Part shown: piece by piece, positions 2,528-25,511 of the stretch
Numbering within the stretch: position 1 is the stretch's first letter
How the letters are laid out: each line of letters starts with the position of its first letter
Translations under genes and position numbers: made by a program
From: a virus
Length of the DNA: 25,511 nt
IMG/VR virus record: IMGVR_UViG_3300017750_000101
Span: 1 to 25,511 of that record
Strand: one strand, 5' to 3'
The notes under the pieces: model-generated
Databases searched by the model: none
What the model was told of the DNA's origin: nothing
What the model saw: only the letters and a program-made list of their open reading frames with translations

Positions 2528-2989
2528 ATGGAACCAGTTACTACAGCATTAGCAGGTATAGCACTTGTAAAGAAATCAGTTGATTTTATAAAAGAAAATA
2601 TATCAACAGCACAGGATATAGGTGAATTAGTAGGTCATGTAGAAAAAGTATTTCAAGGCAGTAATGATTGTATTAAAGCAAGAGAAGGTAAAGACCAATT
2701 TGCAACTGAAAATATTGCACAGGAAGTTATTGATGCTAAGTTAGCACAGGAGCACTTATACGAATTAGGGCAATTAATTAATCATAGATTTGGGCATGGT
2801 ACCTGGCAGTACATATTAGATGAGCGAAAAAAACGAATTAGAGAGAGGAAAGAAAAACTAAAAGAGATGCGAGCAAAAAAAATGAAAAAACAAAAAGAAA
2901 TGATGGAAATTGTTAGTGCTTGTATGATTGGTATTGCTGTTGTTGCTGTTTTATGTATGGTAGGTTATGGTGCTATTATACTTTTATAA
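2528..2989 (+). CDS. Tail-anchored membrane protein of unknown function
   Basis: A 153-residue protein. The N-terminal 100 residues are mixed helical, and about residues 104-126 are strongly basic (many Lys/Arg, as in RKKRIRERKEK). The C-terminal 25 residues form one hydrophobic membrane helix with a very short end outside it. A C-terminal membrane anchor after a basic stretch suggests an inner-membrane protein with its bulk in the cytoplasm. The opening MEPVTTALAGIALV looks like small proteins I associate with marine T4-like phages, but I cannot name a function; a holin-like or tail-associated role is speculation. AAGGAC serves as ribosome site. Its last 14 bases overlap the end of the converging mazG-like gene. 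Confidence 0.75.
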   Translation: MEPVTTALAGIALVKKSVDFIKENISTAQDIGELVGHVEKVFQGSNDCIKAREGKDQFATENIAQEVIDAKLAQEHLYELGQLINHRFGHGTWQYILDERKKRIRERKEKLKEMRAKKMKKQKEMMEIVSACMIGIAVVAVLCMVGYGAIILL

Positions 2990-3248
2990 GATTCGACCAC
3001 TTTTTTAACTTATTTTTCTTATATTTTACTCTTTCATCAAGCATTTTTTGGTCAATTATGCCATATTCCTTACATAATTCAATCATACAGTAGACATCAC
3101 CAATTTCATCTTTCAAAGGTTGATGATTTTCATCACTTCTTCGCATGGATTTAGAACATTCTTGAATTAATTCACCACATTCTTCCATTGTGATGACCAT
3201 AAGTTGCAAAAATTGTGTTTTTAGCAGTTCGGTGTTCGATTTTGACAT
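2976..3248 (-). CDS. mazG: MazG-type nucleotide pyrophosphohydrolase
   Basis: A 90-residue all-helical protein with the diagnostic metal-binding motifs of the MazG/all-alpha NTP pyrophosphohydrolase family: EExxE at residues 22-26 (EECGE) and ExxD at 48-51 within DEIGDV. Members cleave (d)NTPs to monophosphate and pyrophosphate. Small mazG genes are common auxiliary genes of marine phages, where a role in host nucleotide pools has been proposed. It is the last gene of a minus-strand cassette, follows the six-cysteine protein after 12 bases, and has a GAGGT ribosome site in that gap. The length is that of a single compact MazG domain, so it looks complete. Substrate preference cannot be read from the sequence. 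Confidence 0.85.
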   Translation of the reverse strand: MSKSNTELLKTQFLQLMVITMEECGELIQECSKSMRRSDENHQPLKDEIGDVYCMIELCKEYGIIDQKMLDERVKYKKNKLKKWSNLIKV

Positions 3249-3260
3249 AATAAAACCTCA

Positions 3261-3644
3261 TTATTTAATTTTACATTGAATATTTCTTGGACATTGATAT
3301 CTTGGACCTGTTGACATGATAATATCGGGTAAATTTTGCGGATGTTCGTATGTACACTTGTAGGATAAGTCTTTTTTACCCTTTTCATCTTGAAACCATT
3401 CTTGTTTTTTCAATCTACACATAGTAAACATATCAGTTCGTGGCAAATTACCCTTATATTCTCTTCCATACCTGGCATATGTGGCATCAGGACCCTCATT
3501 TAGACAAATCATAACATCAGTTTTAAAATCCCGACAAGGATCCTCTTTAGGAAGTCCTTTATCTTGATTCCATATTTCGATTTGATGAGAATTTGTTATT
3601 ATCATAAAAAATGACAATAATATTAGTAGTGGTAGTCCACGCAT
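3261..3644 (-). CDS. Secreted six-cysteine hypothetical protein
   Basis: A 127-residue protein with a short signal peptide (MRG, then a Leu/Ile/Phe-rich core to about residue 17, ending near TNSHQ). The mature part contains exactly six cysteines (PCRDF, MICLN, MCRLK, YKCTY, QCPRN, QCK), an even number that would suit three disulfides in the periplasm. No enzyme motif is visible and I do not recognise the family. It is the middle gene of the minus-strand cassette, 13 bases after the small membrane protein and 12 bases before mazG, so it is probably expressed with them. Confidence 0.75.
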   Translation of the reverse strand: MRGLPLLILLSFFMIITNSHQIEIWNQDKGLPKEDPCRDFKTDVMICLNEGPDATYARYGREYKGNLPRTDMFTMCRLKKQEWFQDEKGKKDLSYKCTYEHPQNLPDIIMSTGPRYQCPRNIQCKIK

Positions 3645-11754: not shown

Positions 11755-14700
11755 ATGCCAGCATCGACCGATTTTAATGTATCACCATATTATGATGATT
11801 TTTCAGAAAGTAAAAACTTTCATAGAATTTTGTTTAGACCAGCGTTTGCTGTTCAGGCAAGAGAACTAACTCAATCACAATCAATATTACAAAATCAAAT
11901 TGAGAAATTTGGAAACCATGTATTTCAACAAGGTGCAATGGTATTACCAGGACAAGTTTCTATTGATACTGATTTTCACGCAGTAAAATTAACATCTAAA
12001 TCTGCCTCTAGTTTAAGTACATATTTGAATTCAAATGTAACTGGAGGAACATCAGGTGTTGTAGGATTTGTAACTAAAGTTGATGTTACTGATGGCACAG
12101 ACCCAGACACACTTTATATTAGATATACAAAATCTGGTACTGATAATGTAAAGACAGTATTTGATGATGGTGAAACTATAACTTCAGATGCTAGTGGTGC
12201 ACCAACTGCTGTGGTTGCAACAACACATATAGGTTCAGCAGCACAAGTTCAAGCAGGAACATATTATGTAGATGGTTTTTTTGTTAGAAATACTACTGAA
12301 ACAATCGTATTAGATAAGTACACAAACACAGCAAGTTATAGAATAGGTTTTACAATTGCAGAAAGTTTTGTAACTGCTAGTGACGACAGTTCATTAAATG
12401 ATAATGCAACTGGTTCATCAAATGAATCAGCGCCTGGTGCCCATAGATTTAAAATAGAATTAACACTTGCAAAGAAAACATTATCAGATACAGATGATGG
12501 TAGTTTTATCGAGATTGCAAGGGTTGTAAATGGTAGAACAAAAAAGTTAGTTAGAAGTACAGAGTATGCTGTATTAGAAGATAACTTAGCAAGAAGAACA
12601 TTTGACGAGTCTGGTCACTATACATTAGAACCATTAAAGTTAGAAGTAAGAGAACATTTATCTAGTGGTAATAATAGAGGTATTTACACATCAGGCAATG
12701 GTGGTGATTCTACAAAGTTAACAATAGGTGTTGACCCATTTAAGGCATATGTACAAGGATATGAAATAGATAGTATCGGCACTACATTTGTTGATGTGGA
12801 AAAGGCAAGAGATTTTGATTCAGAAAATAATCACAAAACAAGATACAATCTTAAAAACTTTGTTAATGTAAATAATGTTTTTGGTCAACCAGATATTACA
12901 TTTGTATCTGGTGATGTAGAGGCATTTAAAGCAGTAAGTTTATTTGATACAAAAACTGCTGTAAGAGGCACAGCACTAACATCTATAGGAACAAATGTTC
13001 CTCAAATAGGTAGAGCAAAATCTAGAGGTTTTGAATATGTTGCTGGTTCTGAAACTAACGATATATTTACAAGCAATTCAACCACAATCTTTAGACATTA
13101 TCTATTTGATATAGAGATGTTTACAAGACTTAGTATACCAACATCAGTATCATTTACAACTGGTGAAAAAGTAACTGGTGCATCAAACGCTGGTACTGGT
13201 ATTGTTACTTCTGTAACTGCTACAAAGAGTACAGCAGTTACTTCGATTACTGCATCAGGTACAGATATTGAAGGTGCATTTTCAGCAGCAGTTGTAACAC
13301 TTGCAAATCACGGTTATGTAGATGGTCAACAAATTACATTATCTGGTGGTAACTATCAAGTAGATAGTTCTGCTGTTTCTACTGATACAATATACACAGT
13401 AAAAAATACAACAACAAACACTTTCGAATTATATAACGCCGCTGGTACAGATGCTGTTAATGTGACTGCATTTACATCTGGTCCTACATCAACTGCAACA
13501 ACCATAATGCTTACAAATGTACAAGGGTTCTTTGAAGCAGGAGAAGTAATAAATGGTGCATCATCAAATGTAACTGGAACAATTCAATCAGACAGATATG
13601 GATTTAAGGCAGTTAAAACTTCTGAGGTAAGTGAAGTCAAACAACTATCAATGGCAGGTTCACCTGCTTATACTGCTGACGCTGATTTAACTTCTACATA
13701 TGGAGAGAATACAGAGTTATCTGGAAATATAACAGTTGCAAACAGTTCTGCTACAATTACAGGTTCTGGTACAAACTTTACAACTGAATTAAGAATAGAT
13801 GACCAAATCACATTTGTTAATAATGCTGGCGATACGGTAACAGGTTTAATTAAATTTATAGATTCTAATACATCTCTTACATTACAAAGTGCTGTAGGTA
13901 GTTCAGATGTATCTACTGCTAAAATTATTACTAGACAAAGAGGTAAATTACAAAATCCTGAAAACAATAGAAATATATTTAAATTACCATACACAACAAT
14001 TAAAACATTAAAAACAACTGACAATGGTTTAGTCACAGATACAAACTTTAATGTAAGAAGAAACTTTACAGGCACTTTATCATCTAATGGTGATTTATCA
14101 ATCACAACAGGAACAAACGAAACTTTTGCCTCATTAAACAATGATGATTTCTCAGTCACAATAATGTCAACTGGTTCTGGAGGAACTGGTGCTGTTGGAG
14201 ATGTTTTAAATCTATCAGGTAATAACCATGAGGGTGACGCAATATTTACTCTTTCAGGTTCACCAACGGGTAGAACACTAACACTTGATTTTGGTGCAAA
14301 CTTTAATGGTCACAAAGTAAAAATACTTGCGACTGTTTCTAGAAGTGTTGCACAAAATAAAGCAAAAACATTAAATTCAAATGAAACACTTGCTGTTTCC
14401 ACTCAGGCAACAATAGAGAGTGGTATCATTGGATTAGGAAAAGCAGATATCTATAATTTAGATTCAATTTATATGGCACCTGATTTCGATACTGCTGCCA
14501 CTTCAAGTCATACAGACATTACAGATAGATTTGAATTAGATAATGGTCAAAGAGATAACTACTATGATATTGGTAGAATTAAATTAAAACCTGGTAAGTT
14601 AATACCATCAGGTAGATTGTTAATACAATTTGATTATTTCTCACACGGTTCTGGTGATTACTTTGATGTAGACAGTTATGCTGGTGTTATTGATTACGAA

Positions 14701-17700
14701 GATATACCATCATACACATCTCCAATTGATGGTGAAATATTAGAGTTAAGAGATTGTTTAGATTTTAGACCAAGAGTAGATGATGCAAGTACAATTAATT
14801 CTGGTAATGTTGATAGAACATATGACGGTACTGGTGCTTCTGACGCTGATGTTGTAGAGTTTAATTCTGACATTACTACAGACTTTGAGTATTATTTACC
14901 TAGAATAGATAAACTATTCTTAACAAGACAAGGTGATTTTAAAATTTCAAAAGGTGCTTCTGCATTAATACCTGAACCACCTTCAAATCTAGATGGTCAT
15001 TTATATCTTGCAAGAATAGATTTACCTTCATATACACTCAGAACACAAGATGTAAATCTGACTCAAGAAGATACGAAAAGATTTACAATGAGAGATATTG
15101 GTGAAATTGAAAGAAGAGTTCAGAATGTTGAATACTATACTCAATTATCATTATTAGAAGCAGACTCTAAATCATTACAAGTACAAGACGCTGATGGTTT
15201 TGACAGATTTAAAAATGGTTTTGTTGTAGACAATTTCTCTGGTCACAATGTTGGCGATGTTTCAAATAAAGATTACAAATTTGCTGTAGATAGGGCAAAC
15301 GGAGAGGGTAGAGGATTATATTTCTCTGATGCTGTTGAATTAGAAGAAGTAGATGATGATGGTACTGCGATAGTAGAAGCAGATAGAACTGCTGCTGGGT
15401 ATCAAAAAACTGGTGACTTAATTACATTACCATATACAGAGGAAACTTTAGTAGAAGTTCCTTATGCAACTGCTACAGAAAATTTAAATCCGTATGCTGT
15501 ATTCAATTGGATTGGTCAAATAGAATTAGACCCACCTATTGATGAATGGAAAGATATAGTAAGAATACCAGATTTAACAGTTAATGTTAGAGGTTCTTTT
15601 GATAACTTTGCATTTAATAGAGGTATAACAAATCCTAATATTTCAGATATACCCTTGGGTACAGAATGGAATGAATGGCAGACTGCGTGGACTGGACAAA
15701 CAAGAACTTTCAACTCTGGTTGGAATACTATAAGTCAAACGACAATAGGACAAACAAGAACAGGTATTCGTACAAACGCTGTTGCATTAACAGTAACACA
15801 AAATCTAGGTGATAGAGTTGTTGGTGTTAACTTTATACCATTTATTAGAAGTAGAGATGTTGGATTTACTGCAAGAGGTATGAGACCAAACACTAGAGTT
15901 TATGCTTTCTTCGATAATGTAGATGTTAATGGAAATGTAACACCTACTGGAGGTTCATTAGGAGGTAGTATCGTTACAGATGCAAATGGTCTTGCAACAG
16001 GTACTTTTGCAATACCAGACCCAAATGTAGATTCTAATCCTAGATGGAGAACAGGTAAGAGAGTTTTCAGACTAACTGCATCATCTACTAATTCAACCGA
16101 TAAAACTGATGCTGCTACATCTGCTGAAGCAGATTATGTGGCAAAAGGTTTGCAAGAAACAGTTAGAAGTGTGTTCACATCAACAAGAGAATTACAAACA
16201 ATAAGAACAAATGTAACAAGTAATAGAACGACAGTAAGACAATCTGTTTCTGCACGACCAAGACCTCAACCGATACAATTCGGCGGAGGAGGAGGAGGAG
16301 GAGGCGGCGGTGGTGACCCACTTGCTCAGTCATTTATGGTAGATGAGGATAATGGAGTGTTCGTATCAAGTGTTGAAGTTTTCTTTGCAACTAAGTCTTC
16401 AACAATACCTGTAAGAGCAGAAATTAGAAATATGATTAATGGTTATCCAGGTCAAGAAGTTTTACCGTTCTCAGTTAAATATTTAAATCCTTCAGAGGTG
16501 AATATAAGCACAGACGGAACTGCTGGAACAACTTTTACATTTCCTTCACCAGTTTATTTACACGAAGATACAGAGTATTGCGTTATTTTATATTCAGACT
16601 CATTTGATTATACAGCATACATTTGTAAATTAGGTGAAAAGACTTTAGATAGTTCAAGAATAGTTTCAAAAATACCTGATTTAGGCATTTTATTTAAATC
16701 AAGTAACTATAGAACTTGGACACCATTTCAAATGGAAGATATGAAGTTTAAACTGAACAGATGTAAGTTTACAACAGGAACAAACGGTGTTGTGACTCTT
16801 GCAAATAAAGATTTAACAACAAAAACACTTGCAACTAATCCATTAACAACATTTAATGGCACTGGTCTTATTAGAGTTAAACATCCTAATCACGGTATGT
16901 TATCTACATCAGATAATGTAACAATCGCAAATGTTGCTTCTGGCACATACAATAATATTTCTAATAGTGATATAAATGGTACATATACAAGTATATCTAA
17001 TATGACTTTTGATAGTTATGATATTACAACTGGTGGTACTGCAAATGCTACAAGTGAAGTAGGTGGCACAAGTGTTACTGCTACACAAAATAGATTGTAT
17101 GATGTATTACAATTACAAATTGGTCATATTGTACACCCAGATACAACACTTTCAACATCTATTAGAACTACAACTGGTAAATCATTACACGGTTCTGAAA
17201 CACCATTTAGTCTAGCATCTTCTGATAACGCAAAGACAGTAGTTTTAAGTAAAAATATTTATTTTACAGAACCTAAACTAGTGGCATCTGCAATCAATCA
17301 AACAAATGAAATGTCTGCAACCACAAACTTTAAAACATTACTTACAAACATAACAATGAATAGTACATCAGACAATATGTCTCCTGTAATTGATGTTAAG
17401 AGATTAACTGCATTTACAATTCAAAACAGAGTAAGTAATCCAAGTGTGAGTTCAACTAGTACATTTACAGGCGATGGTTCAACAACTGCATTTACTTTAG
17501 GTGCAACACCATCAAGTGCTCATATTATGCAAGTTAAGAAGAATGGCAACTTATTAGAACCAATTGACGATTATACAGTATCAAGTACAACATTAACTCT
17601 TGCAACTGCACCAGCATCAAATGATAAAGTTGTTGCAAAGATTACTAACACAGTAAACTTTAGAGAAGATACAGACAATGAGGGTGGTTCTGCATCATCA

Positions 17701-18060
17701 ACATATCTAACAAGACCTGTTAATCTTGCAAATGCATCTACCGCTCTAGAAATTAGAGTTGACGCATCAGTAAGAGTGACTGGTACTATAGAGGCATATT
17801 TTAGAACAAGTGGTGGTGAAGAAGTAAGACAATTAAAAGATATTGGATATACAGCATTCAATTCAACAGGTGCACCTGATACTGCTGTTACGCCTTCTGA
17901 AGGAAACAATGTTCAAGATTCATCATTTAACGAACATAAATTCTCAGTAAGTGATTTACCAGAGTTCTCATCATTTCAAATTAAATTGGTTATGAAAGGA
18001 ACAGTATCATCATATCCTGTTAGAATTAAAGACTTTAGGGCAATTGCATTGGCGGTATAA
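11755..18060 (+). CDS. Very large DUF4815 virion structural protein
   Basis: A 2,101-residue protein, the largest in the window. The N-terminal region (SPYYDDFSESKNFHRILFRP, then FAVQARELTQSQSILQNQIE) is the hallmark of DUF4815 proteins of marine T4-like phages, which are tail/baseplate-associated. In order there is the DUF4815 part with several ITGxTSxA-type beta repeats (about residues 92-620), and a middle part with TRQRGKLQNPENNRNIFKLP (about 723-742). A long conserved region follows, including EIERRVQNVEYYTQLSLLEA (about 1118-1137) and FIPFIRSRDVGFTARGMRPN (about 1361-1380). A run of 11 glycines (1510-1520) then precedes DPLAQSFMVDEDNG. A shared fibre module (1903-1966) and a closing beta domain end the protein. 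AAAGGATAAAG is the ribosome site. Its exact position in the virion is not known from sequence. Confidence 0.88.
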   Translation: MPASTDFNVSPYYDDFSESKNFHRILFRPAFAVQARELTQSQSILQNQIEKFGNHVFQQGAMVLPGQVSIDTDFHAVKLTSKSASSLSTYLNSNVTGGTSGVVGFVTKVDVTDGTDPDTLYIRYTKSGTDNVKTVFDDGETITSDASGAPTAVVATTHIGSAAQVQAGTYYVDGFFVRNTTETIVLDKYTNTASYRIGFTIAESFVTASDDSSLNDNATGSSNESAPGAHRFKIELTLAKKTLSDTDDGSFIEIARVVNGRTKKLVRSTEYAVLEDNLARRTFDESGHYTLEPLKLEVREHLSSGNNRGIYTSGNGGDSTKLTIGVDPFKAYVQGYEIDSIGTTFVDVEKARDFDSENNHKTRYNLKNFVNVNNVFGQPDITFVSGDVEAFKAVSLFDTKTAVRGTALTSIGTNVPQIGRAKSRGFEYVAGSETNDIFTSNSTTIFRHYLFDIEMFTRLSIPTSVSFTTGEKVTGASNAGTGIVTSVTATKSTAVTSITASGTDIEGAFSAAVVTLANHGYVDGQQITLSGGNYQVDSSAVSTDTIYTVKNTTTNTFELYNAAGTDAVNVTAFTSGPTSTATTIMLTNVQGFFEAGEVINGASSNVTGTIQSDRYGFKAVKTSEVSEVKQLSMAGSPAYTADADLTSTYGENTELSGNITVANSSATITGSGTNFTTELRIDDQITFVNNAGDTVTGLIKFIDSNTSLTLQSAVGSSDVSTAKIITRQRGKLQNPENNRNIFKLPYTTIKTLKTTDNGLVTDTNFNVRRNFTGTLSSNGDLSITTGTNETFASLNNDDFSVTIMSTGSGGTGAVGDVLNLSGNNHEGDAIFTLSGSPTGRTLTLDFGANFNGHKVKILATVSRSVAQNKAKTLNSNETLAVSTQATIESGIIGLGKADIYNLDSIYMAPDFDTAATSSHTDITDRFELDNGQRDNYYDIGRIKLKPGKLIPSGRLLIQFDYFSHGSGDYFDVDSYAGVIDYEDIPSYTSPIDGEILELRDCLDFRPRVDDASTINSGNVDRTYDGTGASDADVVEFNSDITTDFEYYLPRIDKLFLTRQGDFKISKGASALIPEPPSNLDGHLYLARIDLPSYTLRTQDVNLTQEDTKRFTMRDIGEIERRVQNVEYYTQLSLLEADSKSLQVQDADGFDRFKNGFVVDNFSGHNVGDVSNKDYKFAVDRANGEGRGLYFSDAVELEEVDDDGTAIVEADRTAAGYQKTGDLITLPYTEETLVEVPYATATENLNPYAVFNWIGQIELDPPIDEWKDIVRIPDLTVNVRGSFDNFAFNRGITNPNISDIPLGTEWNEWQTAWTGQTRTFNSGWNTISQTTIGQTRTGIRTNAVALTVTQNLGDRVVGVNFIPFIRSRDVGFTARGMRPNTRVYAFFDNVDVNGNVTPTGGSLGGSIVTDANGLATGTFAIPDPNVDSNPRWRTGKRVFRLTASSTNSTDKTDAATSAEADYVAKGLQETVRSVFTSTRELQTIRTNVTSNRTTVRQSVSARPRPQPIQFGGGGGGGGGGGDPLAQSFMVDEDNGVFVSSVEVFFATKSSTIPVRAEIRNMINGYPGQEVLPFSVKYLNPSEVNISTDGTAGTTFTFPSPVYLHEDTEYCVILYSDSFDYTAYICKLGEKTLDSSRIVSKIPDLGILFKSSNYRTWTPFQMEDMKFKLNRCKFTTGTNGVVTLANKDLTTKTLATNPLTTFNGTGLIRVKHPNHGMLSTSDNVTIANVASGTYNNISNSDINGTYTSISNMTFDSYDITTGGTANATSEVGGTSVTATQNRLYDVLQLQIGHIVHPDTTLSTSIRTTTGKSLHGSETPFSLASSDNAKTVVLSKNIYFTEPKLVASAINQTNEMSATTNFKTLLTNITMNSTSDNMSPVIDVKRLTAFTIQNRVSNPSVSSTSTFTGDGSTTAFTLGATPSSAHIMQVKKNGNLLEPIDDYTVSSTTLTLATAPASNDKVVAKITNTVNFREDTDNEGGSASSTYLTRPVNLANASTALEIRVDASVRVTGTIEAYFRTSGGEEVRQLKDIGYTAFNSTGAPDTAVTPSEGNNVQDSSFNEHKFSVSDLPEFSSFQIKLVMKGTVSSYPVRIKDFRAIALAV
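16282..16314 (+). repeat. Poly-glycine linker coding tract
   Basis: Eleven consecutive glycine codons (mainly GGA with GGC and GGT) form a G-rich island in AT-rich DNA. They separate the basic RPRPQP segment from the DPLAQSF domain of the giant structural protein and probably encode a flexible hinge. Confidence 0.9.
17461..17652 (+). repeat. Shared fibre module, copy 2
   Basis: Internal copy of the fibre module in the giant DUF4815 protein (about residues 1903-1966). Landmarks are TGDGSTTAFTLG, VKKNGNLLEPIDDYTV, SSTTLTLATAPAS and VVAKI. Unlike copies 1 and 3 it is followed by another domain of about 135 residues, so here the module is not C-terminal. Confidence 0.75.
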
Positions 18061-18905: not shown

Positions 18906-18922
18906 TATAAATAGTATAAATA
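18906..18922 (+). promoter_or_regulatory. Tandem T4-type late promoter boxes
   Basis: Two exact TATAAATA boxes (18906-18913 and 18915-18922), one base apart, lie in the 33-base gap before the 65-residue gene. They are followed by TTAGGAGATAAA, which contains the ribosome site for the ATG at 18938. Either box fits T4 late spacing. Confidence 0.8.
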
Positions 18923-18937
18923 GTATTAGGAGATAAA

Positions 18938-19135
18938 ATGACAACAAGAATAACAACTGATAATATAACAGATGACACCATACAAACAGCAGATGTTGCT
19001 GATTTACAAGTTACAAATGGTAAGTTGGCATCAACAGCAGTTACATCTAGTAAAATGGCATCTCTAGTTACAATAAACATTTTGGCATCAGACGGTTCAA
19101 CCGTTGTAAAAACAATATTTACACCAGGTTCATAG
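18938..19135 (+). CDS. Tiny fibre-like protein
   Basis: A 65-residue protein of simple composition. Residues 5-45 contain the ITDDTI / VTNGKLASTAVTSSKMAS type of repeat found in many marine phage tail fibres. The end (VTINILASDGSTVVKTIF) could be a single beta hairpin or the start of a longer shaft now lost. It has the strongest promoter context in the window (two late boxes) and a TAGGAG ribosome site, so it is likely to be well expressed. It may be a genuine small virion protein or the remnant of a longer fibre. The next gene starts 13 bases later. Confidence 0.65.
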   Translation: MTTRITTDNITDDTIQTADVADLQVTNGKLASTAVTSSKMASLVTINILASDGSTVVKTIFTPGS

Positions 19136-19147
19136 GAGAAAATTGAT

Positions 19148-20107
19148 ATGACAGCAAGAGTACCATTAATATATGATTCAACCGTTAATAATCCTCGAAG
19201 AATGACAGATGATGAGATTGCATTAAGTAAACTATATTGTATTTATGCTTATGCAGGTAACCCTTCAGTTACTTTGGCAGTAGCAGGAACAATCGCAGGT
19301 GGTACATTATCAAGTGCGTTTACAGATACAAGAAAATCTGCAGGTGCAACATCAACAAGCACAACAGCATTTCCAAATGAAAGTACAACAGAAGAACCTC
19401 AAACAGTAACAGTTTCTTATCAAAGAATGACACAAACAAACGCAAGTGTTTCACCAACAGCAGATGGTGGAAGACTTTGGCCAGTTTACCTAACATCAGG
19501 TGGAAATATTCAGGCAATGAATCAAACAGATGTTAACGATACATTTTTACACCCTGCAATTGACTTATTAGTATCAGCATTTTCTGACAGAGAAAATCAA
19601 GGTGGAACATATACAGTTGCATCCGCAACAACTTTAAGTAATTGTACATTAGTTTCATCTAATCCAATATTCATAGATACAAGAGCAGATGTAAGTGAAT
19701 ATGCTGCTGGTAGTATACCAGAAACTTCTGACCAACCAGAAACAATAACACAGTATTACTTGTTTAAAGTAGACCAAGGTACTGAACCAAATCTTACACA
19801 AGATAATGGTTGTCCATTGTTTATTAATAGTGACGGCAACTTACAATCATTTGCATTGTCAGATTGGCAAGGATATTTAACAGAGTGGATAAGAGAAACT
19901 GCTTCTGAAAGTACAAACACACATCAAATATCTTATAATGTAAATGGTTCTGGTACTAACAGAGGAACAGGAATGGTAAACACAATTCTAGATGGTTCTG
20001 GTAACCGTCAAACAAGGCAAGTAGATGATGATTATAGGGCACAGGAGTTTCCAAATGGTTCACCATCAACTGCTGCTACACACAACTTAAAAATTACTAA
20101 GGCATAA
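19148..20107 (+). CDS. Probable virion structural protein
   Basis: A 319-residue Thr/Ser-rich protein with no export signal. The N-terminus (MTARVPLIYDSTVNNPRRMT, about 1-20, then DDEIALSKLYCIYAY) resembles a group of structural proteins found after fibre genes in marine T4-like phages. The middle contains paired-strand segments such as GGRLWPVYLTSGGNIQAM. A parallel segment (GCPLFINSDGNLQSFALSDW, about 225-244) looks related to it, hinting at an internal repeat. The C-terminus is Asn/Gly/Arg-rich. AGGAG gives the ribosome site. It is likely a tail- or fibre-associated component; the specific role is unknown. Confidence 0.65.
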   Translation: MTARVPLIYDSTVNNPRRMTDDEIALSKLYCIYAYAGNPSVTLAVAGTIAGGTLSSAFTDTRKSAGATSTSTTAFPNESTTEEPQTVTVSYQRMTQTNASVSPTADGGRLWPVYLTSGGNIQAMNQTDVNDTFLHPAIDLLVSAFSDRENQGGTYTVASATTLSNCTLVSSNPIFIDTRADVSEYAAGSIPETSDQPETITQYYLFKVDQGTEPNLTQDNGCPLFINSDGNLQSFALSDWQGYLTEWIRETASESTNTHQISYNVNGSGTNRGTGMVNTILDGSGNRQTRQVDDDYRAQEFPNGSPSTAATHNLKITKA

Positions 20108-20118
20108 TAGGAGATATA

Positions 20119-20625
20119 ATGGCAGAATTTAAAGATAAATTAATTGAAGCGTACTTCACTAATAATGAAAAAAGTACCATTTGTGCTATTTACAAAGGGA
20201 CTAACGACAAAGGTAAAGATGTAGCAGTAGAGCATCATTTAGTTGTAGACCCAGATGATTATTACTATCAAGAGTTAATGAAAGAATTAACTATAGAAGA
20301 GATAGAAGAACATACACAAAAGAGATTAGAAGTATATACAGAAAATTTAAAAAAACTTGTTAAGAAATGGGCATTAGCAGAACCTACAGACTGGGATCCT
20401 AAAAGTGTTGACAAAATTGTAAATCATAGAATGATTAAATTTGTTTTTGATTGGGATAAAGATGATAAACAAATGCAAGAGTTAATGTTTCGTATGAAAC
20501 TTCGTATCTTTGAAAAAGAGAGTGTAAAAGATTCTAAAAATCAAGATGCAAAGGCATTAATTAGAAAAGCAGAAGAACCAATTGATGTTTTAATCGCATA
20601 CGCTAGAGTAATAGGTAAAATATAA
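20119..20625 (+). CDS. Conserved-looking phage protein of unknown function
   Basis: A 168-residue charged, mostly helical protein (EELMKELTIEEIEEHTQKRL-like middle, two DWD/DWDPK segments). It has ordinary composition, unlike the Thr/Ser-rich genes before it, and no membrane segment or enzyme motif. It follows the 319-residue gene after 11 bases with a TAGGAG ribosome site, so it belongs to the same late transcript. Its position at the junction between structural genes and the enzyme cluster could fit an assembly factor. I recall similar proteins in marine T4-like phages but cannot name a function. Confidence 0.7.
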   Translation: MAEFKDKLIEAYFTNNEKSTICAIYKGTNDKGKDVAVEHHLVVDPDDYYYQELMKELTIEEIEEHTQKRLEVYTENLKKLVKKWALAEPTDWDPKSVDKIVNHRMIKFVFDWDKDDKQMQELMFRMKLRIFEKESVKDSKNQDAKALIRKAEEPIDVLIAYARVIGKI

Positions 20626-20642
20626 AAATATAATTTTTTGTA

Positions 20643-21620
20643 ATGTATAAAAAAGATGTGAATGTTCACATAGAGTTATCTGATATTTGTAATGCAATGT
20701 GTTCAATGTGTGGAAGACAATACATTGAAAATGGTAAATTAAAAACTGTACCTACATTCAATAAAACACAATTAAAACTAGACGACATTAAAAACATATT
20801 TGATGACGAATTTTTTGAGCGTTTCAATCTTGGTCGTGTTAATTTTTGTGGCAATATATCTGACCCTTGTGCTAGTTCAGATTTATTATCTATTATTCAA
20901 TATCTCAAACCAAATGTAAAAAGAATAGACATTGCTACAAATGGTAGTCTAAAAAATCTTACATATTTTTCTCGTTTAGCATCTAGTTTAAAAGGTATAG
21001 ACCATAGAGTTACTTTTGCCTTAGATGGTTTACAAAAAACTCATTCGTATTATCGTATTAATACTGACTATAAAAAAATACTTGCAAATGCTAGAGTGTT
21101 TTTAAACTATGGTGGTTACGCAAGATGGCAATTTATTATATTCAAACACAATATGCACGAAGTAAATGTTGCAAAAAAGATATCTAAAAAATTAGGTTTT
21201 CAAGAATTTGTTGCAATCAAAACGCAAAGATTTCATAGAGAAGAATTTAAGTTTACCCATAGAAATAAAAAATATCATTTACAAGAACCTGAAGAAACAC
21301 CTGAATATGAAATGTCTGGTGATGTAAAATGTAAAGCAAAAAAAGATAATGAATTCTTTTTAGACCATTATGGTAATGTTCACCCTTGTTGTTATCTTGG
21401 TGGTGCATATATGAAAATAAGATTCAATGAATGTGAAGATAGTATTATGGAGTTTTATAATAGTAAAGAAAATAATGCAATACAAAATAGTTTAAGTAAT
21501 ATATTAACTGACTCTCAGTTTTTAAAATATCTACAGTTATCTTGGGACGATACGCCGTCTTTATCGTGTAAACAGTTTTGTTCTAGTAATAAGAATTTAA
21601 GAAAGAAATTGATATCGTGA
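20643..21620 (+). CDS. Radical SAM protein with C-terminal twitch/SPASM-like cysteines
   Basis: A 325-residue radical SAM enzyme. The SAM-binding cluster motif CxxxCxxC is at C16, C20 and C23 (CNAMCSMC). The usual GGE segment is replaced by CGNISDPC (69-76). IDIATNGS (about 93-100) and FALDGL (about 124-129) are the further strand motifs of the family. C-terminal cysteines at 230, 249-250, 264, 309 and 313 (CKAK, HPCCYLGG, CKQFC) form a twitch/SPASM-like auxiliary cluster set. Such proteins modify peptides, proteins or small molecules by radical chemistry; the substrate is not evident. It opens the enzyme cluster. No clear Shine-Dalgarno is seen; a TATAAT at 20629-20634 lies in the very AT-rich gap. 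The stop overlaps the next start (GTGA). Confidence 0.88.
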   Translation: MYKKDVNVHIELSDICNAMCSMCGRQYIENGKLKTVPTFNKTQLKLDDIKNIFDDEFFERFNLGRVNFCGNISDPCASSDLLSIIQYLKPNVKRIDIATNGSLKNLTYFSRLASSLKGIDHRVTFALDGLQKTHSYYRINTDYKKILANARVFLNYGGYARWQFIIFKHNMHEVNVAKKISKKLGFQEFVAIKTQRFHREEFKFTHRNKKYHLQEPEETPEYEMSGDVKCKAKKDNEFFLDHYGNVHPCCYLGGAYMKIRFNECEDSIMEFYNSKENNAIQNSLSNILTDSQFLKYLQLSWDDTPSLSCKQFCSSNKNLRKKLIS

Positions 21621-22204
21621 TAAATGTATATTGTTTAAAATGGGGCACAAAATATGATAGACATTTTGTAGAGGACTTAAAAAGTAAACTATCAAAATAT
21701 CTTACTGTGGACCATAACTTCATTTGTTATACAGACGCACCTGAAAAAGAATATGATATAAAAATAGAAAATAATTTACCACATGTTTGGAATAAACTTT
21801 CACTTCTACAGTTTTCTGGTGATAGTTTATACTTTGATTTAGATATTAATATTACAGATAGTGTAAACTTTTTAACAGAAGATTTTACAGACTTTACAGT
21901 TATAGATTCTAGAGCATGGAAAAATAATAAAGAAGACCTAAAGTTTAAGATTACATCTAACACATTTGTTAATAGTTCTATTATGCGATGGTCTAATCAC
22001 TATGACATATATAATAACTTCATAAAGAACTGTAATACCTACATGAGAATTTATAAAGGTATTGACCGTTACATTTACAATGAAAATATTGATTATAAAT
22101 ACTTTAGTAATGAAAAAATTATTAGTTGGAAAAGTGAAAACTTTTCTGAGAAGGCAATAGTATTATATAATGGTAGATATAAAGATAGACACAACCTTTG
22201 CTGA
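21617..22204 (+). CDS. GT-A type glycosyltransferase-like protein
   Basis: A 195-residue protein beginning with GTG in a GTGA overlap with the preceding stop. The N-terminal strand (INVYCLKWGTKYD), the FICYTDAP segment (about 35-42) and the metal-binding DxD (D74-L75-D76, in LYFDLDINITD) are the pattern of small GT-A fold transferases of marine phages related in shape to GT8/GT32. Such enzymes move a sugar from a nucleotide-sugar to an acceptor. VNSSIMRW (about 116-123) and the WNKLSLLQF helix (about 57-65) also fit. It is short for a full transferase but keeps the core. Donor and acceptor are unknown; the setting suggests a shared pathway with the radical SAM proteins. Confidence 0.75.
   Translation: MINVYCLKWGTKYDRHFVEDLKSKLSKYLTVDHNFICYTDAPEKEYDIKIENNLPHVWNKLSLLQFSGDSLYFDLDINITDSVNFLTEDFTDFTVIDSRAWKNNKEDLKFKITSNTFVNSSIMRWSNHYDIYNNFIKNCNTYMRIYKGIDRYIYNENIDYKYFSNEKIISWKSENFSEKAIVLYNGRYKDRHNLC
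22094..22101 (+). promoter_or_regulatory. Possible internal late promoter box
   Basis: An exact TATAAATA followed by CT, as in T4 late promoters, lies inside the glycosyltransferase gene, 68 bases before the methyltransferase-like start. It may be no more than the codons for Asp-Tyr-Lys-Tyr in AT-rich DNA. Confidence 0.25.
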
Positions 22205-22802
22205 CAGAGCAAAAAAAATTATTAAAAAATATCCTAATAGGGCGATAGACTTGTTGCATTGTTTTAGCACATCTCAAAGAATTAGTAAAGAATGGTTAAT
22301 AGAGCAACTGAATAGACACACGCCTGATTCATACACAAAAAGATATATTGATGTTGCAATATTAGGTTCTTGGTATGGATACTTGTCACATCTCTTAAAA
22401 GAACATTTTAAATGTAAACTCATAACAGAAATTAGATGTTATGATGTAGACGATACTGCAAAGAAAATAGGTCGTATGATGTTTTCTGACGATAAGAATT
22501 TGCGATTTATGACAAGAAATATAGATGATGTAGATTTTTCACAACAAGGATTTGATATAATTATAAACACTTCCTGTGAGCATATGCAAGATGATGTTAT
22601 TAACAGATGGTTAGACAGCACACGAAAAGATGTTATTTGTGTTTTACAAAGTACAGATAAACCTGATACAGACCACATTAATTGTTCTAAAGATACACAC
22701 GATTTTGTAAACAGATTTAAACACCACTTTTCAGAGTGTAGTGTTTCAGAATATTGTTTTGAAAATTATTCTAGATTTTTAATAGTTGGAAAAAAGAAAT
22801 GA
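22170..22802 (+). CDS. SAM-dependent methyltransferase-like protein
   Basis: A 210-residue class I methyltransferase-like protein. A glycine-containing first motif (VAILGSWYGYLSHLL, about residues 62-76), an acidic end of strand 2 (CYDVDDTAKKIGR, about 89-101) and a DIIINTSCEHM segment (about 129-139) follow the Rossmann order. The glycine motif is unusual (GSWYG instead of GxGxG), as in a group of phage proteins I recall from cyanophages. The start at 22170 lies 35 bases inside the glycosyltransferase gene; no later in-frame Met is possible without losing the first motif. It is probably O-, N- or C-methylation of the same product handled by its neighbours; the substrate is unknown. Confidence 0.65.
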   Translation: MVDIKIDTTFADRAKKIIKKYPNRAIDLLHCFSTSQRISKEWLIEQLNRHTPDSYTKRYIDVAILGSWYGYLSHLLKEHFKCKLITEIRCYDVDDTAKKIGRMMFSDDKNLRFMTRNIDDVDFSQQGFDIIINTSCEHMQDDVINRWLDSTRKDVICVLQSTDKPDTDHINCSKDTHDFVNRFKHHFSECSVSEYCFENYSRFLIVGKKK

Positions 22803-23494
22803 GAAATTATCTACAAGAAGCAGATGATATTTTAAAATACAATTATCTATATAACTTAAAATTAGATATACAATTACCTAAAGAAGCAATTACTGAAGCA
22901 CAACATGTTTATGATGAAAAGTTTTTTGTTCCTCATAGAGGTAAAAAACATAAGGGTTGGGAATCTACTTGTATACATGGTATCGATGGTATGTTTTTTA
23001 AAACAATGAGTGGTAAACAGTACGGGTATGAAAGTGATAGTGATAGTAAAATAAGATGGTGTTGGACTGATATTGTAAATTATGCACCTAAAACTGTAGA
23101 ATTTTTTAAGAAAGATATGCCTTTGAAAAACTACAGAAGATTAAGATATATGTTACTAAGACCAGGTGGGTATATACTAGAACATAGTGATACTCCACAT
23201 GGTAAACCATATACAGAGAAGAAAAAAGAGAGTATTTTTTCTGCCCTAAATATATGTATAACACAACCAAAAGATTGTGCATTAGAACATTTGAGTAATG
23301 GTGTTGTGCCATTTAACCCCCTAGAGGTTTATTTATTTAATAATGATGAATATCATCATGCATACAATAACTCAAAAGAAAATAGAATTCATATCATAGC
23401 ACACGCTGAATATGATTATGATTTTGCAGAGTTATTTGTGAGGAGTTTTGAAAAGTATTATGAACATTCTAAGTTACAAGAACAAAGCACTTAA
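22799..23494 (+). CDS. Aspartyl/asparaginyl hydroxylase-like 2OG-Fe(II) oxygenase
   Basis: A 231-residue 2-oxoglutarate and iron dependent oxygenase. The iron ligands are HxD at H129-D131 (in YILEHSDTPHG) and a distal His in EYHHAYN (H186/H187). R196 in NRIHIIAH is placed to bind 2-oxoglutarate, as in the AspH family (H-x-x-N then R-x-H/L-x). RYMLLRPGG (about 117-125) is the usual lead strand. The family hydroxylates Asp/Asn residues in proteins or related small molecules. The gene starts in an ATGA overlap with the preceding stop, so it is probably coupled to it. The length is normal for phage members and all key residues are present. Confidence 0.82.
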   Translation: MRNYLQEADDILKYNYLYNLKLDIQLPKEAITEAQHVYDEKFFVPHRGKKHKGWESTCIHGIDGMFFKTMSGKQYGYESDSDSKIRWCWTDIVNYAPKTVEFFKKDMPLKNYRRLRYMLLRPGGYILEHSDTPHGKPYTEKKKESIFSALNICITQPKDCALEHLSNGVVPFNPLEVYLFNNDEYHHAYNNSKENRIHIIAHAEYDYDFAELFVRSFEKYYEHSKLQEQST

Positions 23495-24887
23495 AGGTAG
23501 TCCTAGAGTTATAGAAAAAACTATTGCGTTTGCTGTTATTGATGATAGAAATATAATCAAGCATGATTTAGTAAAGTATATTGTGGAAACATACACAGAA
23601 AATACTTTATATAATTTTTATAAAAGAAAATGTGATATATTAGGTTTCTATAAAGAAGCAGAAATAGATACTGCAATAGAAGAAGCATATCAAAAAGATT
23701 ATGATTTATTAGTTGTTATGAAAAATGGCACATTTATGAATACTTCATTCTTCTTTGAAAATTTGCAAAAGATGATTGACAATAATATTGCGTTAATGGG
23801 ACACATATTAGATGCAGGTCCTGATTATTATTTTGTACATGAGCAATGTTTCTTTTTAAATTTAAAAGCATGGAAATTAGCAAGTTCACCAGAGTATTTC
23901 TCAGGCAATTTAGATGTAGTTACTATAGAAAGAGCACCTACAAACTTTCACGATAATTATACTCCCCATTGGATTAGAATGAAAGAGGATAAGATGCCTG
24001 ACATTGTTAATGTTGAACCAGGTGGTTACATGGTATCTGAATTATTAAAAGCAGGTTATGGGGTTAGTCCATTTACAGAATTACGAAAATTAAAATGGTT
24101 TACATATCACGGTGATACTATGAAGTGTTTAATGAAATCATTATCTATCAACGCAAAAGAATATCACCATGGTTTCTTTTCTACTGAAACAGAGTATATT
24201 GCTGAACATAGATTACACGATAAAATAGATACTTTTATATCTATTGCTTCTGCCTTCCACCCCTTTAAAGTTATGCAGAAGATGAAACTAAATCCTGAAA
24301 ATTTAATAATGTATGATATAAGTAAAGAAGCAATACATGTTTATAGAAATATGTTACAAGCGTGGAACGGTAAAAGTTATATTGAGTTACTAAACAACTC
24401 TAGATTTGAATATAGAAGTGGGCATAACGAAACTTTAGCACAAAAAAGTTTTGATGAGATGAAAGAGATGTGTGATTGGGAACCATTCTTTGATGAAGTA
24501 TGTTCAAAGAATTTAGACTTTTTAAGAGGCAATTTACTAACAGAAACATTTCATAAAAAGTTTATCAATGAACTAACGAAAGATAAAGTTTGTTTGTTCC
24601 ATGTTAGTAATATATTTTCATATGAAGCAGAAACTTATTACTATGATATATTTCAAAGACTTTTTTCATTCTACAACTTATTTGTATTGATGAAGAAACA
24701 CACAAAGAAAACTATATTTAAAGGTTCTATATTTAATTTAGACAATTATGTTTCTACAGATAAAATGGATCCTTTATACTTTATAAACAAAGCAAAAGAA
24801 TTAGCAATCACACCTTGGCAGAAAGAAAAACTTGTAGATTTTGAATCTTCTCTTATGAAAAGGTGGGAAGATATTATGCATGACTAA
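23460..24887 (+). CDS. Two-domain protein: glycosyltransferase-like plus Rossmann/methyltransferase-like
   Basis: A 475-residue protein from the ATG at 23460; a TTG at 23448 is possible but less likely, because AGGAG at 23441 is then too close. The N-terminal half (about 1-225) has the look of a divergent glycosyltransferase: DYDLLVVMKNGTFMN (about 83-97), ALMGHILDAGPDYYFVHEQC (about 112-131) and FFLNLKAW. The C-terminal half has strand-helix signatures of a Rossmann fold (DTFISIASAFHPFKV, LIMYDISKEAIHVYRNML, VCLFHVSNIFSYEAETYYYD). The fold call is by eye and no catalytic residue is secure. The gene overlaps the oxygenase by 35 bases and the last gene by 8. It looks like a fused acceptor-modifying enzyme in the same operon. 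Confidence 0.6.
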   Translation: MNILSYKNKALKGSPRVIEKTIAFAVIDDRNIIKHDLVKYIVETYTENTLYNFYKRKCDILGFYKEAEIDTAIEEAYQKDYDLLVVMKNGTFMNTSFFFENLQKMIDNNIALMGHILDAGPDYYFVHEQCFFLNLKAWKLASSPEYFSGNLDVVTIERAPTNFHDNYTPHWIRMKEDKMPDIVNVEPGGYMVSELLKAGYGVSPFTELRKLKWFTYHGDTMKCLMKSLSINAKEYHHGFFSTETEYIAEHRLHDKIDTFISIASAFHPFKVMQKMKLNPENLIMYDISKEAIHVYRNMLQAWNGKSYIELLNNSRFEYRSGHNETLAQKSFDEMKEMCDWEPFFDEVCSKNLDFLRGNLLTETFHKKFINELTKDKVCLFHVSNIFSYEAETYYYDIFQRLFSFYNLFVLMKKHTKKTIFKGSIFNLDNYVSTDKMDPLYFINKAKELAITPWQKEKLVDFESSLMKRWEDIMHD

Positions 24888-25511
24888 AAGGTTAGAAGAC
24901 TATAAGTGGATATGTCCTCAACCATTTGCAAATGTTTCAACAGACCCGTACGGTGTTTGGCAACCTTGTTGCATGACGCATTTTGAAGAAAGATTATCTA
25001 CAGATAAAGATTGGGAAGAGTTACTAACTAAAAAAGATTTAAAAAATGTTAGAACAGATTCTTTTAGTGATTACTATAGAAGTAATTATATGAGTGAAGT
25101 GCGAGAGGCATTTAGAAAAGGCGAACAACCAGATATGTGTAAAGCGTGTGTACACACAGAAAAAAATGGTTTAAAATCGTTAAGACAAACAAGTATAGAA
25201 AGATTTAATAATGAGTTTAGTCATAAGAAAAAAGAATTAGAAAGAATAATCGAAGAAGACTGTGAACCCACTTTTTTTGAATCACCTATGCTGATATCAT
25301 TAGGTGGTAACTTATGTAATTTAAAATGTGGTATGTGTCACGATTTTGTATCATCTGCTAGAAAGGCAGAGTCTATTAAGTTAGGAGAAATAGAAAAATC
25401 ATCTGCTCTGCTAGTACCAAATCATTGTGATAAATTTTACGAAGACTTGGATTTTATAATAGACAATGCATTAGAGTTTGAACTACCTCAAGCAGAACCT
25501 CTTTTAGTAGA
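24880..25511 (+). CDS. Radical SAM protein with N-terminal auxiliary cysteines, cut by the window end
   Basis: The first 210 residues of a gene that continues beyond the window. The order is unusual. A twitch/SPASM-like part comes first: C12 in YKWICPQPF, C30-C31 in YGVWQPCCM, C87 and C90 in MCKACVHTEKNG. After about 40 charged residues the radical SAM motif CxxxCxxC follows at C146, C150 and C153 in NLCNLKCGMC. A GGE-like segment would be expected just past the edge after AEPLLVE. The ATG at 24880 overlaps the previous stop by 8 bases, so the gene is coupled to the cluster. It is a probable peptide- or protein-modifying enzyme; the substrate is unknown. Confidence 0.82.
   Translation, partial: MTKRLEDYKWICPQPFANVSTDPYGVWQPCCMTHFEERLSTDKDWEELLTKKDLKNVRTDSFSDYYRSNYMSEVREAFRKGEQPDMCKACVHTEKNGLKSLRQTSIERFNNEFSHKKKELERIIEEDCEPTFFESPMLISLGGNLCNLKCGMCHDFVSSARKAESIKLGEIEKSSALLVPNHCDKFYEDLDFIIDNALEFELPQAEPLLV

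Follow-up and report, generated by a model that had tools for sequence, protein, structure and literature searches.

The viral contig IMGVR_UViG_3300017750_000101 (positions 1 to 25,511, a record of about 25.5 kb; hereafter the window, i.e. the whole stretch of 25,511 nucleotides (nt) that was analysed) ends in a cassette of six overlapping enzyme genes, at the centre of which lie a 2-oxoglutarate (2OG) oxygenase gene (g4) and its partner g5, a gene pair that recurs, sometimes as a fusion, in many other viral contigs. The window carries T4-like baseplate genes and its closest cultured relative is Pelagibacter phage Mosig EXVC030M, with an identity of 61.6% for gp6, against 54% for HTVC008M; the phage is a T4-like pelagimyophage, probably with SAR11-type bacteria as host. 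The genes of the cassette are:

20643..21620, + strand: g1, radical S-adenosylmethionine (SAM) protein with C-terminal twitch/SPASM-like cysteines (from profiles; C16-C20-C23, and C230, C249, C250, C309, C313)
21617..22204, + strand, GTG start: g2, GT-A glycosyltransferase (GT) with D74/D76 as DxD (phrog_1962)
22170..22802, + strand: g3, class I SAM methyltransferase (MT)-like protein with D92 and the N133-M139 (NTSCEHM) motif (PF13649)
22799..23494, + strand: g4, 2OG/Fe(II) oxygenase of the Asp/Asn hydroxylase family with H129-x-D131...H186 and R196 (PF05118)
23460..24887, + strand: g5, undescribed family with a GT-A-like N-terminal and a Rossmann MT-like C-terminal domain (predicted model, Foldseek)
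24880..25511, + strand, open at the contig end: g6, N-terminal-twitch radical SAM protein with four twitch cysteines followed by CxxxCxxC (NF033640)

The first-pass annotation of this DNA had described six co-directional genes that overlap at every junction, and this is exactly what is found: six open reading frames (ORFs) on the + strand take up 20643-25511, their junctions overlapping by 4, 35, 4, 35 and 8 bases and the sixth running off the contig (the start of g5 is the ATG at 23460, with an alternative TTG at 23448). Strong overlap begins at the cassette; the virion genes from 4399 up to it are near-abutting, with spacings between neighbours of -1 to +33 bases, and the G+C content drops at the cassette from about 0.33-0.35 to 0.28-0.30. 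All six genes are found in identical order behind the same tail genes in a second contig (L002/L009 in our locus numbering), with protein identities to the window of 66, 56, 51, 77, 74 and 45% for genes 1 to 6, and the arrangement is therefore more than chance. A cluster of six is nevertheless too narrow a description: the window contig ends inside it, L002/L009 carries on past gene 6 with a GT and then two more 2OG-like genes, and complete islands vary in content.

Relatives of g5 were retrieved from viral contigs by means of an anchor on the C-terminus of VrlC, the giant baseplate protein encoded upstream, then a sub-alignment of the g5 C-terminus, and then a four-sequence g5 alignment (scans with single proteins, g1 or g5, and the first two-sequence scans returned L002 alone or nothing). 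The four-sequence scan gave 228 relatives, 80 of which were kept; with the window this makes 81 loci and 85 g5 copies. Overlapping same-strand pairs involve 58 of these 85 copies, 51 in the order g4-g5 and 7 in the order g5-g4, and the remaining copies are fused to g4 (5), have g4 nearby on the opposite strand (16) or farther away (1), or lack it (5). The presence of g4 beside g5 was not built into the search because g5 alone served as bait, and 27 representatives with less than 80% identity give the same picture (15 overlapping, 2 fused). In the fusions, g4 and g5 make up a single protein of 669-672 amino acids (aa) (L145:6257-8269, L146:4247-6259, L147:1412-3421, L149:4278-6290 and L165:4266-6284). 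As judged from gene context, pairing and fusion imply that g4 and g5 would act on a shared substrate. Scans of bacterial and archaeal genome contigs recovered no relative of either gene with the allowed patterns, from which absence from cells does not follow.

The usual companions of the g4-g5 pair are an N-terminal-twitch radical SAM gene (N_Twi_rSAM) and GTs. In the divergent loci L090/L091 the order is carbamoyltransferase-GT-MT-g4-g5-SGNH-N_Twi_rSAM-GT, located between the neck genes and c7 (a small gene described below), L092/L094/L095 hold a minimal island, c7-GT-g4-g5-GT-N_Twi_rSAM, with further tail-fibre genes behind it, and many further loci (e.g. L160 and L112) read radical SAM-radical SAM-MT-g4-g5-N_Twi_rSAM downstream of tail-fibre genes. 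The block GT-(MT)-g4-g5-...-N_Twi_rSAM-GT recurs in divergent T4-like phages; the T4 gp23 major capsid protein is found in 9 of the 16 parent records, and N_Twi_rSAM scores above cut-off in 15 of the 16 as compared to none of 14 control genomes. Virion genes lie near g5 in several lineages: it follows VrlC and fibre genes in the window, L009 and L092, lies in the interval between c7 and the neck genes in L091 and, in other lineages, comes after a tail fibre (L160, L112), before neck genes (L158) or near portal and protease genes (L148). The earlier proposal of one coupled unit thus holds for a block with the g4-g5 pair as core, the linkage of which is conserved across relatives rather than dissolved into singly scattered genes.

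In the case of g4, the profile score for PF05118 (23.4 bits, cut-off 22.6), the HxD...H motif and the 2OG-binding arginine together place the protein in this family, which all 18 of 18 relatives match as well; the iron triad H129/D131/H186 and the 2OG-binding R196 are present in 100% of 76 sequences. The nearest solved relatives in the PDB are proline cis-4-hydroxylase, a 'Beta-hydroxylase' and ASPH, which we take to act on amino acids or peptides, and the family also includes the lipid A hydroxylase LpxO. In the preferred reading given below, g4 would be an amino-acid or peptidyl 2OG hydroxylase.

The partner, g5, has no family match in Pfam, PHROGs or the PDB sequences, a few weak single-member matches being read as chance. 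Its structure was predicted from a 25-sequence alignment (an earlier two-sequence model, with a predicted local distance difference test (pLDDT) score of 44, was unusable) and the resulting model is confident (pLDDT 88, predicted template modelling score 0.85). A Foldseek comparison with the PDB puts the protein glycosyltransferases LH3, mimivirus R699 and COLGALT1 at the top, with the PBCV-1 capsid GT and other GT-A enzymes further down and the methyltransferases INMT and NNMT lower still. Because the template modelling (TM) scores are 0.18-0.23 despite an E-value of 1.8e-5, the model is read as a GT-A-like plus an MT-like domain and not as homology to any given enzyme; the best viral fold matches, with a TM of about 0.7, are unnamed proteins of uncultured phages. 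Signatures in the alignment are GHILDR..YY.LH.QCF and NFHDDYTP, with D286 and N384 at the positions where the MT fold expects them, and no significant hit came from profile-profile comparison with the other families of the cassette (the best, at a probability of 5.7%, being the C-terminal half with the MT family). The protein had been called two-domain and transferase-like; the two domains stand, while the generic label gives way to an unclassified family with GT-A-like and MT-like domains.

The other gene identities first read from the letters (two radical SAM proteins, a DxD glycosyltransferase, a methyltransferase-like protein and a 2OG oxygenase) were confirmed by profiles, with g3 remaining below cut-off (Methyltransf_25, PF13649, 3.4e-4; the D92/NTSCEHM motif is conserved in 20 relatives). 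For g2, phrog_1962 matches at 1.3e-6 and the DxD is conserved in 45 of 45 relatives. Both g1 and g6 combine CxxxCxxC with the domain fold of radical SAM enzymes, but in opposite domain order, since g6 has SPASM/twitch first and radical SAM second. In g1, radical SAM plus SPASM/twitch is assigned by profile with a Pfam score below the gathering cut-off, and the radical SAM cysteines are invariant (100% in 17 relatives). The contig-truncated g6 scores 114.8 bits against NF033640 N_Twi_rSAM (cut-off 170), its full L009 relative 220, and all seven cysteines are invariant among its relatives, which are full-length in L002, L090 and L091. In the window at 25430-25511, the GGEP motif that is usual in this family reads QAEP, either as a real divergence or as a result of a low-quality contig end. 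One T4-like record (L148, IMGVR_UViG_3300020477_001008, 242,646 bases) contains 22 N_Twi_rSAM matches, the majority of which are full-length and above cut-off; earlier reports describe phages with many radical SAM genes (PMC2853527, PMC5332604), the highest count per phage in the literature compared being 12. The presence of two radical SAM enzymes had been taken as the distinguishing feature of the cassette, a role that passes to the g4-g5 pair, as g1 is missing or replaced in the complete islands L092, L096 and L097. Being absent from the L090/L091 and L092/L094/L095 islands, g1 is on this genomic evidence dispensable.

The genes and signals on the left side of the cassette are:

11755..18060, + strand: VrlC-type giant baseplate protein of 2101 aa (phrog_358, 1745 bits; aligns with the annotated VrlC of HTVC008M and Mosig)
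18906..18922, + strand: T4-type late promoter motif TATAAATAGTATAAATA in double copy, immediately before the ORF at 18938 (L009 has it at the corresponding site, 12006)
19148..20107, + strand: c9, virion-type protein of 319 aa, recurrent left neighbour of enzyme islands (cluster 9, 27 loci)
20119..20625, + strand: c7, protein of 168 aa marking enzyme islands (alignment, locus counts)

In pelagimyophages, a hypervariable 'host recognition cluster' has been located from VrlC to the neck gene gp14 (Zaragoza-Solas et al. 2020, PMC7029224), and that paper mentions radical SAM cassettes as well as numerous GTs inside it. VrlC is the left border of this cluster. The phage of the window is T4-like and related to HTVC008M and Mosig, and its island begins immediately behind VrlC, which puts the cassette at the cluster start; the right border lies beyond the contig, the window stopping inside the cluster, and in L091, which is more distant, the island borders directly on the neck genes. 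At this site HTVC008M has fibres with 2OG genes and Mosig a large biosynthetic island; no recognised enzyme genes were found there in the OM43 phage Melnitz.

Regarding expression, TATAAATA motifs stand 16-32 nt ahead of several virion genes (4383, 9312, 10250 and 18906/18915), and from 18938 to the window end there is none save one inside g2, with tight gene spacing into the cassette. Since the last upstream motif lies there, transcription of the cassette probably starts at the late promoter predicted at 18906-18922. Exact matches to TATAAATA are not in excess in the window (7 as compared to 4.9 expected), so the argument rests on motif positions. The match inside g2, at 22094, was considered as a promoter and rejected: it is conserved in L009, lies 76 nt from the g3 start and is read as coding sequence. 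The inverted island of Mosig has TATAAATA 13 nt ahead of its first gene.

What follows VrlC is modular. In 80 loci retrieved with the VrlC C-terminus, three locus types were seen, namely islands with GT, MT, radical SAM and carbamoyltransferase genes, a second type of radical-SAM island, and loci with fibres only. Among the 49 loci that extend 5 kb or more beyond VrlC, the GT family is present in 24 of 26 with c7 and in none of 23 without it (Fisher 5.6e-12, an optimistic value since the loci are related). No convincing family match was obtained for c7, which may be a chaperone, an adaptor or a substrate. Gene order, strand and content of the islands are shuffled between loci, as expected of modular accessory regions; GT, MT and radical SAM 1 are freely shuffled among neighbouring phages, a point on which the first-pass reading had to be changed. 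In three islands adjoining tail-fibre genes N_Twi_rSAM is fused to a NodU/CmcH-type carbamoyltransferase of 966-968 aa in total (L013:17383-20283, L062:17100-20006 and L063:11157-14063). The second island type, unrelated to the first, occupies the same site after VrlC in L017, L018, L019, L020, L050 and L055 and consists of clusters 24-27-60-28-33-34-35-44-45 with about three radical SAM genes.

Because the 2OG oxygenase has a GT-like partner, as in the modification of collagen by LH3 and in mimivirus, the pair suggests by analogy hydroxylation followed by glycosylation, and because location and expression are shared with late virion genes in several lineages, a virion protein would be the likeliest acceptor. 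Our tentative first choice is therefore late modification of a fibre or baseplate protein by hydroxylation and glycosylation, with radical SAM enzymes adding further chemistry. On this view the cassette would open an accessory late module within the host recognition cluster, with g4 and g5 as core, g2 and g6 as helpers and g1 and g3 as add-on tailoring enzymes. As virions assemble, the late operon would also supply a tail-fibre or baseplate protein whose side chains g4 would hydroxylate; g5 and g2 would attach sugar (and methyl) to the new hydroxyls, the radical SAM enzymes would perform further C-H modifications, and the decorated receptor-binding surface could alter or protect host recognition. 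The virion protein as substrate, the order of the steps and the benefit to the phage are what we infer. A wider proposal, namely an unnamed but widespread phage pathway in which a PF05118 g4 and g5 hydroxylate and then glycosylate virion proteins with assistance of N-terminal-twitch radical SAM enzymes, as an independent counterpart of the eukaryotic and giant-virus systems, is doubtful at present. Several points weigh against the virion reading: the substrate is a putative one, insertions are known to accumulate in this region and position may explain part of the linkage to fibre genes, the alignment shows no conserved DxD in the GT-A-like domain of g5 and the whole-model TM is low (0.18-0.23), leaving its GT activity putative, and neighbouring ORFs in both locus sets contain no collagen-like run of at least five GXY repeats, so that a collagen-type substrate is not supported. 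The SDR, DegT aminotransferase and carbamoyltransferase genes of sister islands, moreover, would fit surface-glycan synthesis too.

Of the products named at the outset, a modified virion protein stays the best candidate and a host glycan its main rival. The cassette would in the latter case build or edit the O-chain or lipopolysaccharide (LPS) of the infected SAR11 cell for superinfection exclusion, which we consider rather unlikely, although PF05118 also holds LpxO and sister islands carry GalE-like short-chain dehydrogenase/reductase (SDR), DegT aminotransferase and carbamoyltransferase genes that are typical of sugar tailoring. PMC7029224 likewise proposes an LPS/exclusion role for the GTs of this pelagimyophage cluster. 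No membrane protein (flippase, polymerase, acetyltransferase or any other) was found, the core enzyme families are without any membrane or hydrophobic segment (and thus without the membrane flippase or membrane GT of gtr-type serotype conversion), and the predicted late promoter is shared with virion genes, at a time when exclusion would give little benefit. The solved relatives of g4 point away from a glycan as well, presumably acting on amino acids or peptides.

Biosynthesis of a small molecule or peptide (nucleoside-, aminoglycoside- or RiPP-like, i.e. like a ribosomally synthesized and post-translationally modified peptide) for host takeover or competition would account for the variety of genes that sister islands contain (radical SAM, 2OG, GT, MT, carbamoyltransferase, PP-loop and nitroreductase), and the best, weak PDB match of g6 is cytosylglucuronate decarboxylase (E=0.023). 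It is improbable all the same: all junctions overlap and leave no intergenic room for a precursor-peptide ORF (within the cluster, a distant precursor being possible), neither a scaffold-forming enzyme nor an exporter was seen, and the constant association with virion modules goes unexplained. That association also speaks against hypermodification of DNA or RNA, where a base would be hydroxylated and then glycosylated and tailored, since the cassette lies in virion and not in replication modules and g4 belongs to PF05118; the logic of 2OG plus GT is known from DNA modification and some sister islands have QueC-like PP-loop genes, yet sequenced SAR11 genomes have hardly any restriction systems (PMC7029224). 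A Tet_JBP search of the 16 records gave no match, but it gave none in its control either. This is the least probable account. Hardly more probable is the absence of any shared pathway, i.e. an insertion hot spot that gathers unrelated moron genes with overlaps due to genome compaction. It agrees with the fact that related phages differ in which GT, MT, radical SAM and carbamoyltransferase genes they carry and in what order, and that 1-4 base overlaps are ordinary in phages. The linkage and fusion of g4 and g5 do not agree with it, nor does the recurrence of N_Twi_rSAM and GT beside them in divergent phages, the fusions in particular weakening it. For modification of a virion protein, the conserved, sometimes fused two-gene core offers a defined and testable handle, with one protein pair and one candidate substrate class (fibre/baseplate proteins of the same operon).

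The cassette had been put forward as the best candidate for an undescribed system, a term that claims too much for islands of this kind. It shares with the pelagimyophage host recognition cluster the place (downstream of VrlC), the mix of fibres, GTs and radical SAM cassettes and the phage group; in the excerpts of PMC7029224 used, the radical SAM cassettes are mentioned in passing, the GTs are assigned to LPS, and the g4-g5 pair, its fusions and its spread to other phage lineages are not described. In the family libraries and literature searched, no description of the pair, the g5 family or the fusions was found. The site and the radical SAM/GT cassettes in it are thus known already, while the g4-g5 core appears to be new, as far as sequence comparison goes. 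The Mosig island lies at the same locus and has the c7, c9, MT, GT and radical SAM families in common with the cassette, but no g5 or N_Twi_rSAM was found in it, most of it is on the opposite strand and it has its own carbamoyltransferase, DegT aminotransferase, nitroreductase and PF05118 genes. The radical-SAM islands of the T4-like Campylobacter phages CP220/CPt10/F379 (PMC2853527) likewise combine many radical SAM genes with a sugar transferase near baseplate/lysozyme genes, and g1 matches one of their radical SAM proteins; they differ in having an amidinotransferase instead and another gene order, and a protein search of the phage collection found no g4 or g5 in them. Nor did that collection yield any cultured T4-like marine phage with the g4-g5 pair. 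In collagen hydroxylysine glycosylation by LH3/PLOD3 and mimivirus R699 with COLGALT1 (PMC9546862) a 2OG hydroxylase is likewise linked with a GT-A-like protein, in some cases as parts of a single chain, whereas g4 is a PF05118 protein and g5 lacks the DxD and has an MT-like second domain; the likeness is at fold level only, the PDB sequence search giving no sequence-level homology of g5 with LH3/PLOD or the GT domain of R699.

Elsewhere in the window, two ORFs on the minus strand (2976-3644) break the otherwise plus-strand arrangement, and the GC skew dips there too.

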